Shown here one piece after another: positions 752-6,392 of a stretch of DNA of 14,544 nt. Origin of the DNA: Candidatus Hodarchaeaceae archaeon (lineage in GTDB: Archaea; Hadarchaeota; Hadarchaeia; Hadarchaeales; Hadarchaeaceae); assembly GCA_030018135.1 (NCBI GenBank), contig JASEGJ010000026.1, positions 1 to 14,544 on the forward strand, read 5' to 3'. The notes below the pieces were generated by a model. It ran no database searches, was not told the DNA's origin, and saw nothing but the letters and a program-made list of their open reading frames with translations. The position numbers were made by a program, and so were the translations under genes. How positions within the stretch are numbered: position 1 is the first letter of the stretch; every line of letters begins with the position of its first letter.

Positions 752-1531
752 ATGAAGGTTAAGGCACTCGTGGGGGAGGAAAACGGGGTCTCGGTGGTCA
801 CCGGGGCAATAGTGGTCGCCGCCGTGGTCGCCATCGTCCTCTCCATCTTCCTCGCGTTTTGGATACCCCGTCAGGGGTACGAGAAGGAGCGCGAGCACGT
901 GGAGGAAATCAGGGGGAGCTTCTCAAAGCTGAAGTCCGCGATCGAGACGATCGAGCTGCTCGGCTCCAGGACGGTAGATGTTAAGATGAACGCGGACCCC
1001 ATCCCCATTTTCGGCGGGCCGGCGAAGGGGGGGCTCCTATCGTTCGATAATTCCGGCAGCTCGATCGGCTTTCAATTAAACAACAGCTACTACGTCGACC
1101 AGACATGGGTATACGAGAACGGGGCGGTGATATTGGTGCAGGGGGGCCAAAGCATCATGGCCTCTATGCCGGCGATGGTGGCGGCCGTCGACAACGAGCG
1201 CGAGAACATAAGGGTCGAGGTTCACGTAGTCCGGCTGAAGGGCAAGGGCACCTCGATCGGGGGGACCGGCACCCGCACCATCGTTATAGTGAGGGAAAAC
1301 GTCGTCGTCGAAAATTATCACGTCCCGAGCCTGACCATAGCAATAAACTCGGCCTACCCCGACGCTTGGCGGGAGTACCTCGGCCACCTCGAATCGAGGC
1401 TCAACGCTAAGGGCTACAACGCTGCGGTGGATGACCTCTCGATCACGATAGACGGGAAGGTCGAGGACGATGGGGTGAACGACATTTACTACTTCAGGAA
1501 GGTCATAGAGGTTGAAATCAGCATCGGGTGA
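752..1531 (+). CDS. type IV pilin-like secreted protein, short paralogue
   Basis: A 259-residue protein with a class III signal peptide: charged leader MKVKALVGEENG, probable cleavage at Gly12/Val13, then VSVVTGAIVVAAVVAIVLS as the hydrophobic helix. After it come a charged helical segment (REREHVEEIRGSFSKLKSAI) and the block LLGSRTVDVKM, both shared almost unchanged with the next gene. The domain then continues through NSYYVDQTWVYENGAVILV, a segment rich in beta strands, and a C-terminal block IYYFRKVIEVEISIG. The C-terminal half (DAWREYLGHLESRLNAKGYNA) is also shared with the neighbour. The 220-base leader holds a T-rich region but no strong ribosome site. It ends a few bases before the next start, so the two are probably co-transcribed. 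Likely a pilin or adhesin-like minor filament subunit; specific function unknown. Confidence 0.75.
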   Translation: MKVKALVGEENGVSVVTGAIVVAAVVAIVLSIFLAFWIPRQGYEKEREHVEEIRGSFSKLKSAIETIELLGSRTVDVKMNADPIPIFGGPAKGGLLSFDNSGSSIGFQLNNSYYVDQTWVYENGAVILVQGGQSIMASMPAMVAAVDNERENIRVEVHVVRLKGKGTSIGGTGTRTIVIVRENVVVENYHVPSLTIAINSAYPDAWREYLGHLESRLNAKGYNAAVDDLSITIDGKVEDDGVNDIYYFRKVIEVEISIG

Positions 1532-1535
1532 GGCG

Positions 1536-3449
1536 ATGGGCGCTAGCTTCGGAATACGCTCGCAGGGGATTGTAGGGGAGAAGAGGGGCGTTTCCGTAGT
1601 ACTCGGCGCGATAATCGTCTTGGCGATCCTCTTCGTGGCCTCCTCCGCCTACATCGCGGCCTTGATCCCCAGCGAGGGGCACCAAAGGGAGCGCGAGCAC
1701 ATGGAGGAGGTGAAGGAAAGCTTCCTCGAGCTGAAGTCGGCGATCGATACGCTCGAGCTGCTCGGCTCCAGGACGGTAGACGTGAAGATGGCCGCCGACC
1801 CCATGCCCGTCTTTCAAGGCGCGAGGTCCGGCGGCCGCCTGTCGGTCGAGCCAGCTGGCGCCAGATTTCTCTACGCCGAGAGCTTGGGAACAGATAACAC
1901 AACTTCCACCAGCTATCAGGATAAAGTCGTCCTGACCTTCACGCCACCCAAGCCCCTAGATTACCTCATCATAGCCTCGGCGGAGGTTGCCGGAAGTGCT
2001 ACAACTCAAGAGATATGGGCAAGCTTGGAGGTCAATGGAGTCGTTCACCAAGAGCTCAGATACGCGGTAAATGATCCCTCGGAATGGTATCCGCTCAATG
2101 CCCTGAAAAGGGTCAAACTCTCCAGTCCTAGCGCGGTGAAAATTCGATTCAAAACGAACACGCCGGGCACGGCATCTATAAGAAGTGCCCGCATCGTGGC
2201 GTGGGCAATCACTTGTGAATACGCCGAAAATGAAAATGAGGCCTCAAGGGTTGGTGTGGAAAATAGGGTTACTCTAAAGTTTACTCCCTCGACGGCTGGC
2301 GATTACCTAATCATCGCGACGGCGAACATCACAAACACCTCAACCTCGAGGGATACGATAACTAGGTTGTTAATAAATGGAATCGAATACGCCGGCGCCC
2401 GGAGGAGGCCAACTTCGACCACCGCTTATTATTCCTTCGGTAACATCAAAAAAGTCACCCTGCAAGGCGGCTCTGAAAGTACGATTGTAATCCAATACGA
2501 ATCCGCAAAAGGAACGGCGAAAATTAAATATGCTCACGTCGCCGCGATCCGCCTCGACCAACTGCCAAATAGTTATTATGCAGAGAACGAGGCCCCGACA
2601 AAAACTCTACCAAAAAAGTGGATTGATAAGGTCGCTAATACTTACGTAAGCCAGGAGGACCATTTAATTCTTGGCACCATACATCTCAAAGAAACGGGGA
2701 TAGCTAAGTTCGTCGGTGCTAAATTGTTGGTCGATGGTATCACTTCCGAAAAACCGTATTTTAAGGGAGTCAGTGCTTGGATTTATGAAAGCACTTTAAT
2801 GATGGATAAAAAAAGTTTGGCAGCTGGCGGCCATCAAGATAAAATCCAATATTATGGAGAAAGCGCAGCCGAAGAAGCGAAGTTCGGAAGGCTCATGTCC
2901 TTGGAGGTACCCTCCCTCCACCACATGCGGCACGGCGTCATCCGCTTCGACATAAACAACGTCTACTACGTCGATCAGACCTGGGTGTACGAGCTGGGCG
3001 CCGTCATCCTGGCCCAAGACAACGCCAGCGTCATGGTCTCGAGATTCGAGGATGTGGGCTTGGTCGCCGCCGATAACGGGGACATCCGCGGCAACCCCCT
3101 GCCAGGCGATAACATCCGCGTCGAGGTCCACTTCATCAGGGTCAAGCGGTTCGATACCTCGGTGAGCTCGATGGGCACCTCCACGATCATGCTCGTCAAG
3201 GAGAACTCCCATTACGAGGTCGAGAACAGCCCCCGCGAGAACGTCACCATAAGGGTCAACTCGACGTACAGGGACGCCTGGGCTGAGTACCTCTCGTGGC
3301 TGGTGGGGGAGCTAAACGCCAGGGGCTACAACGCATCCTTCGACGACCGCACGCTCAGGCTCACCATTCTAGGCAAGAGGACATCCCCGGGCGTGAGCGA
3401 CATCCTCTACTACGAGAGGGTCACGGAAATAGAAGTGAGCCTCGCGTGA
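1536..3449 (+). CDS. large type IV pilin-like protein with three-repeat insertion
   Basis: A 637-residue relative of the preceding protein. I chose the ATG at 1536, five bases after the previous stop, because GGTGAGG lies just ahead of it; an in-frame ATG at 1512 is possible. The leader MGASFGIRSQGIVGEKRG precedes VSVVLGAIIVLAILFVASS, with likely cleavage at Gly18/Val19. Residues about 50-100 and about 460-637 align with the shorter paralogue (REREHMEEVKESF, LLGSRTVDVKM, YYVDQTWVYELGAVILAQ, DILYYERVTEIEVSLA). Between them sit about 355 extra residues in three repeats of 116-119 residues starting near 113, 229 and 348. Each opens with YAE and the first two continue with a TFTP...DYLIIA-type strand pattern, so beta-sandwich domains are likely. 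The insert is visibly richer in A and T than its flanks. Probably a filament-tip or cell-surface adhesin; binding target unknown. Confidence 0.75.
   Translation: MGASFGIRSQGIVGEKRGVSVVLGAIIVLAILFVASSAYIAALIPSEGHQREREHMEEVKESFLELKSAIDTLELLGSRTVDVKMAADPMPVFQGARSGGRLSVEPAGARFLYAESLGTDNTTSTSYQDKVVLTFTPPKPLDYLIIASAEVAGSATTQEIWASLEVNGVVHQELRYAVNDPSEWYPLNALKRVKLSSPSAVKIRFKTNTPGTASIRSARIVAWAITCEYAENENEASRVGVENRVTLKFTPSTAGDYLIIATANITNTSTSRDTITRLLINGIEYAGARRRPTSTTAYYSFGNIKKVTLQGGSESTIVIQYESAKGTAKIKYAHVAAIRLDQLPNSYYAENEAPTKTLPKKWIDKVANTYVSQEDHLILGTIHLKETGIAKFVGAKLLVDGITSEKPYFKGVSAWIYESTLMMDKKSLAAGGHQDKIQYYGESAAEEAKFGRLMSLEVPSLHHMRHGVIRFDINNVYYVDQTWVYELGAVILAQDNASVMVSRFEDVGLVAADNGDIRGNPLPGDNIRVEVHFIRVKRFDTSVSSMGTSTIMLVKENSHYEVENSPRENVTIRVNSTYRDAWAEYLSWLVGELNARGYNASFDDRTLRLTILGKRTSPGVSDILYYERVTEIEVSLA
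1873..2900 (+). repeat. three diverged protein repeats inside the large pilin
   Basis: Repeat starts are near 1873 (YAESLGTDN), 2221 (YAENENEAS) and 2578 (YAENEAPTK), about 350 bases apart. The first two share the order YAE, V-L-T/K-FTP, DYLIIA, then a polar strand with an xNG turn (LEVNG, LLING). The third keeps YAENE, HLILGTIHLKE and LLVDG but is more diverged and has lost the FTP segment. The shorter paralogue at 752-1531 lacks the whole block. Confidence 0.65.
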
Positions 3450-3525
3450 TTTTTTAGGTTGATGAATGAAGAGCAGGCTCTTTCGTTTCGCGTGTTCGAA
3501 ACGTTTCGCTGACAAAACTTCGATT
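3450..3525. other. intergenic stretch with T-run and 12-bp palindrome
   Basis: A run of six T directly after the pilin stop may terminate transcription. At 3497-3508 lies the perfect palindrome cgaaacgtttcg, and ten bases of it recur at 4014-4023. The two copies belong to a larger similarity downstream of the two matching pilin ends, so a shared ancestry explains them better than an operator. Confidence 0.4.
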
Positions 3526-3854
3526 TTACCTATCTAAACTTTGGCAAATTAATTTCACAGGATTGCCACCTGTTCGTTTAGAAATCCTCTCTTTTAGGAG
3601 AGGTTTGATCGTATTATACTCCACCAGATCGACTTTCCTCCCCAAGGCCTCTTCGATTTCTAGCCTAAGTCCAACGAAGTCGAGTAGGCTGATGTCGCTT
3701 TCGATTTCCACCAAAATATCGATGTCGCTGTCCTCTTTTATCTCCCCCCGAACGCATGACCCGAATATCCCCGCTTTTTTTATCCCATAACGCCGCAGGA
3801 TCGGAAGGATCTTTCGTTTTATTTCCTCGATATTTGCTCCCGTTTATCCACCAT
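3526..3854 (-). pseudogene. MNT-type nucleotidyltransferase, one base short
   Basis: The minus strand encodes a small nucleotidyltransferase of the DNA polymerase beta superfamily. The core reads IFGSCVRGE then DSDIDILVE, the GSxxRG...SDxD signature that binds nucleotide and metal. It continues with DLVEYNTIKPLLKERI, a typical C-terminal segment of MNT proteins. No ATG, GTG or TTG lies ahead of the core in its own frame. A good N-terminus (ATG at 3854, MVDKREQI) sits in another frame, and the 329-base span is exactly one base short of an open gene, with the lesion close to 3830. MNT proteins usually pair with a HEPN partner as toxin-antitoxin modules; no HEPN gene is next to it. A TATA-like run at about 3872-3880 fits the ATG. 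It may be a dead remnant or a sequencing error. Confidence 0.7.
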
Positions 3855-3890
3855 TTCTTCATATGGTCCGGTAGGTAAAAAGATTGGCTC

Positions 3891-3949
3891 GCGTGAGCGA
3901 CATCCTTTACTACGAGAGGGTCACCGAGGTCGAGGTGAGCCTCGCCTGA
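3891..3949 (+). pseudogene. 3' remnant of a fourth pilin-like gene
   Basis: These 59 bases match 3391-3449, the end of the large pilin, at 52 positions, with an offset of exactly 500 bases. The reading frame gives VSDILYYERVTEVEVSLA and a TGA. Of the seven differences all but those changing one Ile to Val are silent, so the copy diverged while still under selection and was cut down later. Similarity continues weakly past the stop, including the palindrome near 4014. Nothing upstream of 3890 belongs to a pilin; the nucleotidyltransferase remnant lies there instead. Confidence 0.75.
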
Positions 3950-3952
3950 TCT

Positions 3953-4108
3953 TCAAGGATCCTGAATCGAGAATAGGCCCCCCCTGCCGTTCAGTTCCAC
4001 TTTTAGCTTATTCGAAACGTTTCTGCCGATCGAAGCGTCGATTTCTGGCGATGTCAGATCGACGGCCAATATTTCAACGCCGTCCAACTTAAAGCCGCTT
4101 ATTGACAT
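3953..4108 (-). CDS. possible small protein of 51 residues
   Basis: An open frame on the minus strand starts at the ATG at 4108 and ends at a TGA at 3953-3955. It begins MSISGFKLDGVEILAVDL, contains DASIGRNVSNKLKVELNG and ends GGLFSIQDP. The alternating hydrophobic pattern suggests a small beta-rich protein, not random sequence. It would converge on the pilin remnant, four bases away. The part near its 3' end also resembles the DNA after the large pilin gene (3456-3530), where the frame is broken. A TATA-like region near 4160-4178 is shared with the toxin-antitoxin genes on the other strand. No family recognised; it could be a chance frame. Confidence 0.3.
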   Translation of the reverse strand: MSISGFKLDGVEILAVDLTSPEIDASIGRNVSNKLKVELNGRGGLFSIQDP

Positions 4109-4173: not shown

Positions 4174-4196
4174 ATATGGGGGGCGAAGTATTTTTA

Positions 4197-4484
4197 ATGG
4201 TGATGTAAACGGCAGATACCTACATCTGTAAGGTAACTTCGGTTGGCCAAATAACCCTCCCGAAAAAAGTTAGGGAGAAGTTAGAAGTTGGGGAAGAGGA
4301 CTACATTATCCTAGAGAGGATTGGAGACACCTATTTCCTAAAAAAAGTCGAGATCGAAAGAGACATTTTGAAGCGGGTCCGAAGAAAGGTAAAGAAAAGC
4401 GGGATAACGAGAGAAAAGCTGGCTGAGATCCTTGAGAAGGCATCCGAGGACGTGTGGAGAAAAACTCGTGAAAGCGTTCGTTGA
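4197..4484 (+). pseudogene. AbrB-type antitoxin with stop at codon 4
   Basis: The frame encodes a typical AbrB/SpoVT (VapB-like) antitoxin: YICKVTSVGQITLPKKVRE forms the swapped-hairpin DNA-binding fold, followed by LEVGEEDYIILERIGDTYFL and a basic helical tail that should bind the toxin. The only good start, ATG GTG ATG at 4197, runs into TAA at 4206-4208. After it the frame is open from 4209 to the TGA at 4482-4484, about 91 residues, with no ATG, GTG or TTG before the second half. Either the gene carries a nonsense mutation, the sequence is wrong here, or an unusual start is used. The stop overlaps the PIN toxin start by 17 bases, as expected for a coupled pair. If the antitoxin is truly dead, the intact toxin downstream needs explaining. 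Confidence 0.7.
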
Positions 4485-4899
4485 CGCCAACACCATCTTG
4501 AGCGGGTTGTTATTTGCGGGCAACGAGGCGGTCTTGCTGGAACTCGGGAGGCTGGGGGCCCTGCACTTGGTGACCAACGAGTACGTGTTGAAGGAGGTGC
4601 GGGCGGCCCTAGAAAGGGAGGATTTTCACCTCGCGGAGAAGGAGCAGCGGTACTTGATGAGGTATGCTTTGGAGTGCATTTCCATTGCAGGGGACCCGTC
4701 AAAGGAGGATATCAAGAAGCATTACGACCTGCTTTGGGACAAAAAGGATTTGCCCGTCGTCGTTGGGGCAAAAAGGGAGGACTGTGAATTTTTGGTCACT
4801 GGCGATAAAGAATTGCTCTCTGGAAAGGTCAAAAAATTTGTAAATTCGATCACGACATTCGAGCTGTTGAGAAGGCTAATGAAGGAAAGGTCTCCATAG
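4468..4899 (+). CDS. PIN-domain ribonuclease toxin (VapC-like)
   Basis: A 143-residue PIN-domain protein, probably a toxin that cuts RNA. Acidic residues expected at the metal site are visible: Asp6 in KAFVDANT, Glu43 in NEYVLKEV, Asp94 in KKDLPVV and Asp113 in TGDKELL. I chose the GTG at 4468 because FVDAN should lie near the N-terminus; a start at 4432 adds residues unlike the family. It overlaps the antitoxin frame by 17 bases, which indicates translational coupling. The layout and the VGAKREDCEFLVTGDKEL segment resemble the PIN family often annotated as a putative toxin with a separate antitoxin. It ends in TAG with a TAA two codons later. Confidence 0.85.
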   Translation: MKAFVDANTILSGLLFAGNEAVLLELGRLGALHLVTNEYVLKEVRAALEREDFHLAEKEQRYLMRYALECISIAGDPSKEDIKKHYDLLWDKKDLPVVVGAKREDCEFLVTGDKELLSGKVKKFVNSITTFELLRRLMKERSP

Positions 4900-5015
4900 C
4901 TTTAAGTCGAGCACCAGTTCGACATCCGCGGTTGCGAGCGGAGATGTACGATAATCCGCCGACTTATGCGCGTCGGATGATTTCTAAGGATTTTGAGGCT
5001 TACCCAAAACTTAAA
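4900..5015. other. intergenic region with two possible stem-loops
   Basis: Between the two toxin-antitoxin pairs lie two self-complementary stretches. In one, acatccgc near 4922 could pair with gcggagatgt near 4939. In the other, ccgac at 4959-4963 pairs with gtcgg at 4972-4976. They may end the first transcript. No gene is visible. Confidence 0.25.
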
Positions 5016-5028
5016 TGGGTTTAACCCA
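5016..5028. promoter_or_regulatory. 13-bp palindrome at promoter of second TA pair
   Basis: The sequence tgggtt-t-aaccca is a perfect inverted repeat directly after a TATA-like cttaaatg and 20 bases ahead of the ATG at 5048. Its position suggests an operator for self-repression by the antitoxin. The first pair has a different palindrome in a comparable place. Confidence 0.45.
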
Positions 5029-5047
5029 CAAGATTTTATGGGATAAA

Positions 5048-5284
5048 ATGACCTCTGTCGTCGACGGGAGAGGGAGGGTAGTCCTACCCAGACACGTGAC
5101 CGAGGCGCTCGAATTAAGCGAAGGGGACATGATCGCATTTGAGAAGGTCGAGGACCACTTTGTGATTAGGAAGGTAAGGGCGCCCGAGAGGAAACTGGAG
5201 GAAATCATGAGTTGGAATCCAAAGCGTATAGGAAAGCCGGAGCCAGTTTCGCCGAAGGAGATGAAGGAGATCTGGAAATCTTGA
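5048..5284 (+). CDS. AbrB-type antitoxin of second TA pair
   Basis: A 78-residue AbrB/SpoVT-fold antitoxin. The N-terminal part TSVVDGRGRVVLPRHVTEAL is the standard looped-hinge DNA-binding segment, followed by LSEGDMIAFEKVEDHFVIRK. The tail (SWNPKRIGKPEPVSPKEM) would bind and neutralise the toxin. An in-frame ATG at 5015 exists, but it sits in the palindrome and TATA region. The ATG at 5048 gives the usual family length and a nearly leaderless message. The stop overlaps the toxin start as TTGA. Unlike its neighbour at 4197, this antitoxin is intact. Confidence 0.85.
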   Translation: MTSVVDGRGRVVLPRHVTEALELSEGDMIAFEKVEDHFVIRKVRAPERKLEEIMSWNPKRIGKPEPVSPKEMKEIWKS

Positions 5285-5700
5285 TCGGCCTAGACTCGAA
5301 TATCTTGGCCTATGCCCTCGACCCGACTTTTCCGGAACATCGGCATGCTAAAAAAGCCATTTTGGAGCTCGATAGTTGGCACATAAATCCAACCGTAGTC
5401 CACGAGGTTTATCACACCCTAGTCTTCAAGAGGAAAATGGAACCTACAGCGGCCGAGAGGAAGCTCATTGAATTTTTGGGCGACGAAAGGACATTTTTCG
5501 CGAACCAAACTAAATCGACCTCACTCTTTTCCCTGAGCCTCGCGAGCAAATTCGGCCTCGGAGGTAGGGATTCGCTGACCATAGGATGTTACCTGCACGC
5601 AAAGGTAAGTAAAATGCTTACGCACGATGAGGAAATTCTTCAGCTAAAAGCTTTGAAGTTCAGGGGTAGGGGAGTTGAATTCACGGACCCGATCAAATAG
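5281..5700 (+). CDS. vapC: PIN-domain ribonuclease toxin (VapC)
   Basis: A 139-residue VapC-type toxin. The PIN metal-binding residues are all visible: Asp5 in IGLDSNILAYA, Glu42 in VVHEVYHTLV, Asp97 in LGGRDSLTIG and Asp116 in LTHDEEIL. The start is a TTG at 5281 that overlaps the antitoxin stop by four bases, so the GLDSN segment falls at the N-terminus as is usual. A longer frame from 5212 would only read the antitoxin gene in another frame. GGAG occurs about 13 bases upstream. It ends in TAG, and a T-run at 5748-5753 may terminate the operon. Confidence 0.88.
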   Translation: MIGLDSNILAYALDPTFPEHRHAKKAILELDSWHINPTVVHEVYHTLVFKRKMEPTAAERKLIEFLGDERTFFANQTKSTSLFSLSLASKFGLGGRDSLTIGCYLHAKVSKMLTHDEEILQLKALKFRGRGVEFTDPIK

Positions 5701-5979: not shown

Positions 5980-6392
5980 TCAAACGTTTTTCAAGCCTAT
6001 CCCGATGACGACGTCGAGCAGCACCCCCTTCGACGGCGAATGGATCACCTGACCCTCATCGTCCTGCCGCTCGGATTTCCCCCGTACTCATAGGAGCCCC
6101 AGCATTCGTCGCCGGGAGAGAAGGGCCCATCCCACCTCATGGCGACGCTCCTCAGATACCCCCTGGAGTCCTCGGCGAGCACCTCGAGCTCATTGCCGCT
6201 CAGAGTAGCTCCGCCCCTGTGGATCAGGAGGATCCTCACAACCTCGCCCCCCTCCCGCTCCGCCTCCGCCATCAGGATCGCGTGCGGCGCCTTCGCGAGC
6301 GCGATTATGGTGGCGATTATCAACGATGAGGCGATGACGATGATGCCCACGGCGACCATCATTAGCAAATCCCTTTTGCTGCCCTCGATCAA
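5980..6392 (-). pseudogene. small type IV pilin-like protein, one base short
   Basis: A relative of the pilin at 106-534. It has an N-terminal hydrophobic helix (LLMMVAVGIIVIASSLIIATI), then APHAILMAEAEREGGEVV, LLIHRGGATLSGNELEV and SPGDECWGSYEYGG. The frame from the TTG at 6392 closes at a TGA at 6045-6047. Just past it, in the next frame, the expected ending continues as VIHSPSKGVLLDVVIG up to a TGA at 5980-5982. The first pilin ends with VIHTPSGQLLLD at the same place, so one base (probably a G near 6047-6050) is missing. The leader is also odd: KRD replaces the usual charged stretch ending in Gly, so peptidase cleavage is doubtful. A TATA-like aacttttaag near 6405-6413 suggests its own promoter, and GAGGGGG precedes the TTG. 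It follows the RAD55-like gene, which suggests a shared filament role. Confidence 0.7.

Follow-up and report, generated by a model that had tools for sequence, protein, structure and literature searches.

The window, the whole stretch of 14,544 nt that was analysed, opens with an ordinary archaeal type IV pilin gene (19–534, +), as identified by Pfam Pilin_N (E = 8e-17) and the NCBIfam archaellin/type IV pilin N-terminal domain (E = 1e-10). Two further open reading frames on the same strand follow, with a gap of 4 nt between them. The shorter (752–1531, +) encodes a 259-aa pilin-like protein of the DUF7289 family that is naked, that is, a shell without a passenger. The longer (1536–3449, +) encodes a 637-aa protein of the same family carrying a passenger in a loop. 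Both match Pfam DUF7289 above the cut-off of 27 bits (36 and 31 bits in the two proteins; E = 7e-9 for the short and 2e-7 for the long). The short protein has an orthologue in a sister genus, G005, where a protein 66% identical to the long one has the same layout. A strong G+C-rich hairpin followed by T-rich sequence, terminator-like in appearance, lies between the first pilin and the short gene (611–630, +); the region around it (535–650) matched no Rfam family, and Rfam and tRNA scans of the window gave no matches.

Shared ends and pilin-like character of the two neighbours

Comparison of the two neighbours by BLASTP showed 53% identity over the N-terminal 103 residues (E = 2e-34) and 49% over the C-terminal 169 residues (E = 4e-42), leaving about 358–360 residues of the long protein without counterpart. 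The original prediction, that the proteins match at both ends and that about 355 residues are extra in the second, was thus borne out. Measured between the profile edges of the shared ends, the gap is 15 aa in the short protein and 372 aa in the long one. The N-terminal shell (1536–1850, +) comprises the class III signal peptide, a long helix and the first head strands, and was delimited by alignment with the short protein, the modelled helix and the left change point in third-position GC content (GC3). The C-terminal shell, the rest of the head domain (2922–3449, +), was defined by the same alignment and by a C-shell profile built with the long protein included (E = 6e-57).

Three repeats occupy the space between, as had been proposed: R1 (1869–2216, +), R2 (2217–2567, +) and R3 (2574–2921, +), each placed by a repeat profile and by a model as a C1q/TNF-like jelly roll. 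A single profile, built with the repeats included, matches all three at E = 4e-22 to 8e-34. Pairwise identity is 31% for R1/R2 (E = 1e-14) and 23% for R2/R3 (E = 2e-5), and R1/R3 reach only E = 0.001. R3 is the most diverged of the three; it contains the right GC3 change point, and its last 15 codons are shell-like in composition. PHROGs contained no family for the insert or for the shell.

Both shell proteins start with an apparent class III signal peptide, KRG followed by VSVVLGAIIVLAILFV, as read from the sequence. In the model of the long protein a single helix (residues 19–76) precedes a beta-rich head. Passenger matches filled the lists from structure searches with this model, which bear on the passenger and not on the fold of the shell. 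In the sister genus the pilin, short and long genes lie directly downstream of a PilB3-like ATPase and a T2SSF platform gene, a PilB/PilC-type cluster, and in G006 PilB3-like ATPase and T2SSF genes lie upstream of a loaded shell. The window contig starts just before the first pilin and contains no such machine genes. The named relatives in the public collection are Hadesarchaea metagenome-assembled genomes.

A predicted single-chain trimer and its repeat counts

Searched by sequence against Pfam and the PDB, the insert gave only hints below cut-off, among them BclA_C, which is a C1q/TNF-like domain. The BclA_C profile scored 19.2 bits against a cut-off of 38, and no C1q, TNF or BclA_C profile matched above cut-off; the insert is therefore a fold match and not a filed member of the C1q/TNF family. 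From the BclA_C hint and the constant count of three came the hypothesis that the insert is a pseudo-trimer in a single chain; it was written down ahead of any structure prediction. In the full-length model (alignment of 9 rows), R1 and R2 mostly had pLDDT values of 63–89 and R3 had values near 35; its best structural matches were five engineered single-chain C1q/TNF trimers, with Z scores of 21–23 over all three repeats. AlphaFold2 prediction of the three repeats alone (the triad; 13 rows, with phage homologues added) gave a mean pLDDT of 91.6 and a pTM of 0.92.

Comparison of the triad model with the PDB using VIA-align returned the same five engineered single-chain C1q/TNF trimers at Z = 25–27 over 314–337 residues. 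Every other match listed covered a single repeat with a Z score of at most 13, and the TNF-like lectins PLTL and BC2L-C ranked first among these. A single repeat matched C1q, TNF family and BclA structures at Z = 9–13. Foldseek aligned the triad with 4zch at TM = 0.68–0.69 and with predicted giant-virus proteins at TM = 0.69–0.82. These models predict that the three repeats close round a pseudo-threefold axis as one C1q/TNF-like trimer. The suggested search of the repeat against structure and profile databases thus assigns it to the C1q/TNF-like fold by structure, with profile hints below cut-off only. Of the proposed beta-domain array in a loop of a filament subunit, the beta-domain unit in a pilin-like loop stands; the term array does not, since the triad is predicted to fold as one unit.

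To the number of repeats we applied a single-repeat profile, which does not favour triads and which found the repeat in 10 of 394 genomes. Repeat blocks were counted with a refined profile over the loci of these 10 genomes and over IMG/VR loci. Among 24 blocks in archaeal and phage proteins, 21 had three repeats, two had six and one had a single repeat, so that 23 of the 24 hold three or six. The blocks include near copies (L106/L107, L115/L116 and L110/L111) and one partial repeat in G294, and the phage loci, retrieved by triad queries, carry less weight in this count than the archaeal loci. In the six-repeat protein of L099, units 1/4, 2/5 and 3/6 are 89, 81 and 95% identical, while off-register pairs are 21–31% identical; the corresponding in-register values for L110 are 67, 49 and 33%. 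This period-three identity indicates that the triad is the unit of duplication. An alignment of 18 repeats contained no stretch conserved enough for a sequence query. The sole single copy (L101:4091–4591, −, in G026) lies in a 167-aa open reading frame, with phage-tail-like sequence before it; three such chains could form a trimer.

The triad is also present in phage proteins and in proteins without a detected pilin part, of which some have a secretion signal or a membrane anchor. The long protein accordingly joins a pilin part to a separable module that is not pilus-specific, the structural mark of a modular pilin. The phage proteins, from IMG/VR contigs (L105–L119), are 651–2,415 aa long, some being ended by a contig edge, and carry one or two N-terminal triads. 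The triads are followed by simple repeats in L105 and by a long repetitive region in L106; neighbouring genes match a head protein in L105 and tail proteins in L106. A tblastn search against annotated phages found no triad, in contrast to the IMG/VR contigs.

The head loop as a passenger site

In the model of the long protein the insert lies in a head loop, between strands 100–106 and 467–473. The same junction was surveyed by running profiles of both shell halves over Hadesarchaea. It measures 13–20 aa in naked shells and 241–385 aa in twelve loaded shells. The passenger found there is the triad in G000 and G005, LamG_3 in G011, CBM96 in G009 and G012, and DUF2341 with weak lectin-like matches in G023–G025. 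The G006 shell, sister of the G011 shell (99/100), has an empty junction but carries about 308 residues in a second loop. The DUF7289 loop is thus a standing passenger site, with different passengers or none in relatives.

About seven changes are needed to explain the loaded state on the shell tree, and well supported branches force at least three of them; clustering of the loaded label was not clearly above that of shuffles (119 of 500 were as low). One loaded shell of G023 has a naked sister in G024 and a naked outgroup in G025, and reads as a recent passenger gain at the same junction. Recent copying of the passenger between neighbouring G023 genes was considered but found no support, the two DUF2341 passengers being only about 30% identical over their first 135 residues. 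Derivation of the short form by deletion, the outcome that would have told against the original prediction, found no support: G005 has separate orthologues of the short and the long form, and naked DUF7289 shells are common in other archaea. Across a wider sample of archaea, in which Haloferax volcanii and Methanosarcina acetivorans are among those with DUF7289 genes, proteins of this family about 255–280 aa long often adjoin ones about 470–540 aa long. In L104 (G257) and L047 (G056), where the short member has about 265 aa and the long one about 485–540 aa, the extra part of the long DUF7289 protein comes after the shell, not inside the loop.

Very large shells were seen in G009. Two contig ends (L034:1–4350, −, and L033:11448–17612, −) overlap by 55 exact bases, in frame, and across this overlap the N-terminal half of a shell, 1,450 aa long, runs on into a C-terminal half of 2,055 aa. 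This genome probably encodes a pilin-like protein of about 3,490 aa, with one triad within a giant passenger; G012 has similar shell halves. Elsewhere in G009, a single 1,003-aa open frame (L034:7137–10145, −) has matches to Zn-dependent phospholipase C and F5/8 type C before a pilin shell, and is either a fusion or two genes sharing one frame without a stop.

Base composition bears on the history of the insert. The two shell ends have GC3 values of 0.84 and 0.89, against 0.58, 0.53 and 0.46 for R1, R2 and R3. Maximum-likelihood change points fell at nt 1851 and 2877 (lnL gain 52.7), and the drop of 0.34 exceeds the largest (0.26) among 28 other long open reading frames sampled from the genome. 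The contrast expected along 1500–3450 is therefore present, and the repeats are more A+T-rich than their flanks as predicted; the genome mean GC3, however, is 0.66 (sd 0.10; 252 kb of sampled contigs), so that the shell is itself unusually high as well as the insert low. In the G005 copy the insert has a GC3 of 0.81 in a shell of 0.77. Between the window and G005 the shell is 78–79% identical and the passenger 57%; among G023, G024 and G025 the passenger has diverged about as much as the shell. The sharp edges, together with a passenger more diverged than its shell between genera, suggest that in the window lineage a diverged homologue later took the place of the passenger, except for the last 15 codons of R3, which were retained. 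The low-GC3 tract may also have arisen by drift.

A proposed modular archaeal pilin and its alternatives

The explanation we favour, and consider likely, is that the long protein is an archaeal type IV pilin of modular build, in which a DUF7289 shell presents a one-chain trimeric head from a loop socket and makes the pilus adhesive through a surface ligand. The shell, with its signal peptide, long helix and beta-rich head, would be the exported part that the pilus machine assembles. The loop between two head strands would serve as the passenger socket that shows the triad, and the three linked jelly rolls, as modelled, would form one trimeric binding head per subunit. Linking the trimer would allow the three inter-repeat grooves to differ. 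The short neighbour would be the same shell without a passenger, perhaps a partner in the same complex, possibly at the tip. By analogy with PilA and PilC of Streptococcus sanguinis (PMC9934059), the naked partner may stabilise or seat the loaded subunit. The head most probably binds a glycan or other surface ligand; a glycan is favoured by the several other passengers of carbohydrate-binding kinds and by the lectins that are its nearest single-domain structures.

For the ligand there is a different reading, in which the triad is a trimer but takes no part in adhesion to the outside, its target being the S-layer, another pilin or some other protein. C1q/TNF-like domains often bind proteins, the ligands of these folds including proteins as well as sugars, and a shared fold shows no function. 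Such a protein-binding or structural cap is nevertheless unlikely, though it keeps some weight, given the same carbohydrate-binding passengers and lectin structures. Whether the shell belongs to a pilus bears on another reading, that DUF7289 proteins are surface receptors held in the membrane by the N-terminal helix. The tie to a pilus rests on sequence and gene cluster, and proteins as large as that of G009 would be hard to fit along a filament; but the class III signal peptide, the pilin neighbour and the PilB3-like and T2SSF genes beside the pair in G005 and beside the loaded shell in G006 make a membrane receptor improbable.

Still less can be said for treating the repeats as a string of independent beta-domains, incidental in number, that extend the subunit as a stalk would. 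Tandem beta-domain stalks are common in surface proteins, and R3 was poorly predicted at full length. The strong bias to three or six repeats, duplication in threes, the high pTM of the triad and the full-length match to single-chain trimers render this reading very improbable. It is scarcely credible, finally, that a fresh foreign A+T-rich segment was newly put into a copy of the short gene in the window lineage. The sharp GC3 edges would fit such an event, but the sister genus has the same passenger in the same place without the contrast, and the long and short forms had already parted when the two genera diverged. An origin of the insert within the window lineage does not fit these findings, and the composition contrast cannot be read as a trace of the original insertion.

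The modular pilin we favour has precedents in bacteria. PilB and PilC of S. sanguinis are modular pilins for which adhesion has been shown (PMC8179133, PMC9934059); like the archaeal protein, they join a type IV pilin to a separate binding module (vWA, or Ig with a ConA-like lectin), and a naked companion pilin, PilA, stabilises PilC (PMC9934059). Their module is C-terminal of the pilin part, whereas the archaeal one interrupts the head, with more of the shell following it. GspK of type II secretion is a pilin-like subunit that does have an extra domain inside the pilin fold, but that domain is alpha-helical with unclear function, and no passenger exchange is described there (PMC8179133).

For the triad, the closest counterparts by modelled fold are the engineered single-chain trimers (PDB 5kca, 4zch, 5hkj, 5hzf and 4dou), in which three jelly rolls in one chain form one trimer. 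These were built in the laboratory from animal proteins and are 8–10% identical to it in sequence. PLTL and the N-terminal domain of BC2L-C, the nearest single-domain structural matches listed for the model (Z about 13), are separate chains that trimerise, PLTL forming hexamers, and are 16–20% identical to it (PMC12914763, PMC7024360). In PLTL the sugars are bound where neighbouring protomers meet (PMC12914763). The pearl mussel protein HcC1qDC6 is natural and has three consecutive C1q domains, but is an animal immune protein whose description does not mention a trimer (PMC5519582). The predicted structure of an uncultured Caudovirales phage protein (A0A6J5RA88, BFVD) covers the whole triad (TM 0.90, rmsd 2.5), in a protein with no pilin shell. 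The literature covered, which included few subscription papers, contained no report of in-loop passengers in archaeal pilins, nor of natural single-chain C1q/TNF trimers beyond the mussel protein. Modular pilins are already known in bacteria; an archaeal version that has its module within a loop, here a predicted natural trimer in one chain, is new. The triad is possibly a new protein family.

A broader proposal, which we hold to be evenly balanced, is that a hitherto undescribed family of natural single-chain C1q/TNF-like trimers, almost always in threes, is common to archaeal surface proteins, an archaeal pilin loop and tailed-phage structural proteins, that covalent linking let the units diverge into an asymmetric binding head, and that the DUF7289 loop is a socket for exchange. 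If so, these archaea would change pilus binding by swapping entire heads at a fixed loop of a single subunit, and would make natural use of what protein engineers have constructed, a one-chain trimeric receptor head. DUF7289 would gain a candidate function, and the recurring short/long gene pair a reason. That phages have the triad family too hints that binding heads come from a common pool. The rule of three can be checked from sequence alone.

Other traces of pilin-like genes were seen in the window. The last 63 nt of the long gene and the stretch downstream recur 500 nt further on (3891–4023, +), with 88 nt at 81% and then 22 nt at 86% identity. The second copy is in frame to the stop (LARVSDILYYERVTEVEVSLA), has no gene body before it, and is what is left either of another shell gene or of a duplication. 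Between both copies lies a nucleotidyltransferase open reading frame (about 3510–3860, −; NTP_transf_2, E = 3e-16), of a kind found in MNT-type pairs. Two small gene pairs at 4190–5700 (+) resemble, by eye, AbrB-type antitoxins with PIN-type toxins. An open reading frame at 6045–6392 (−), next to KaiC-like and MinD/ParA-like genes, is pilin-like and related to the first pilin (19–534); its Pilin_N match is below cut-off and the signal peptide is seemingly missing, so that it is perhaps a truncated paralogue of that pilin.
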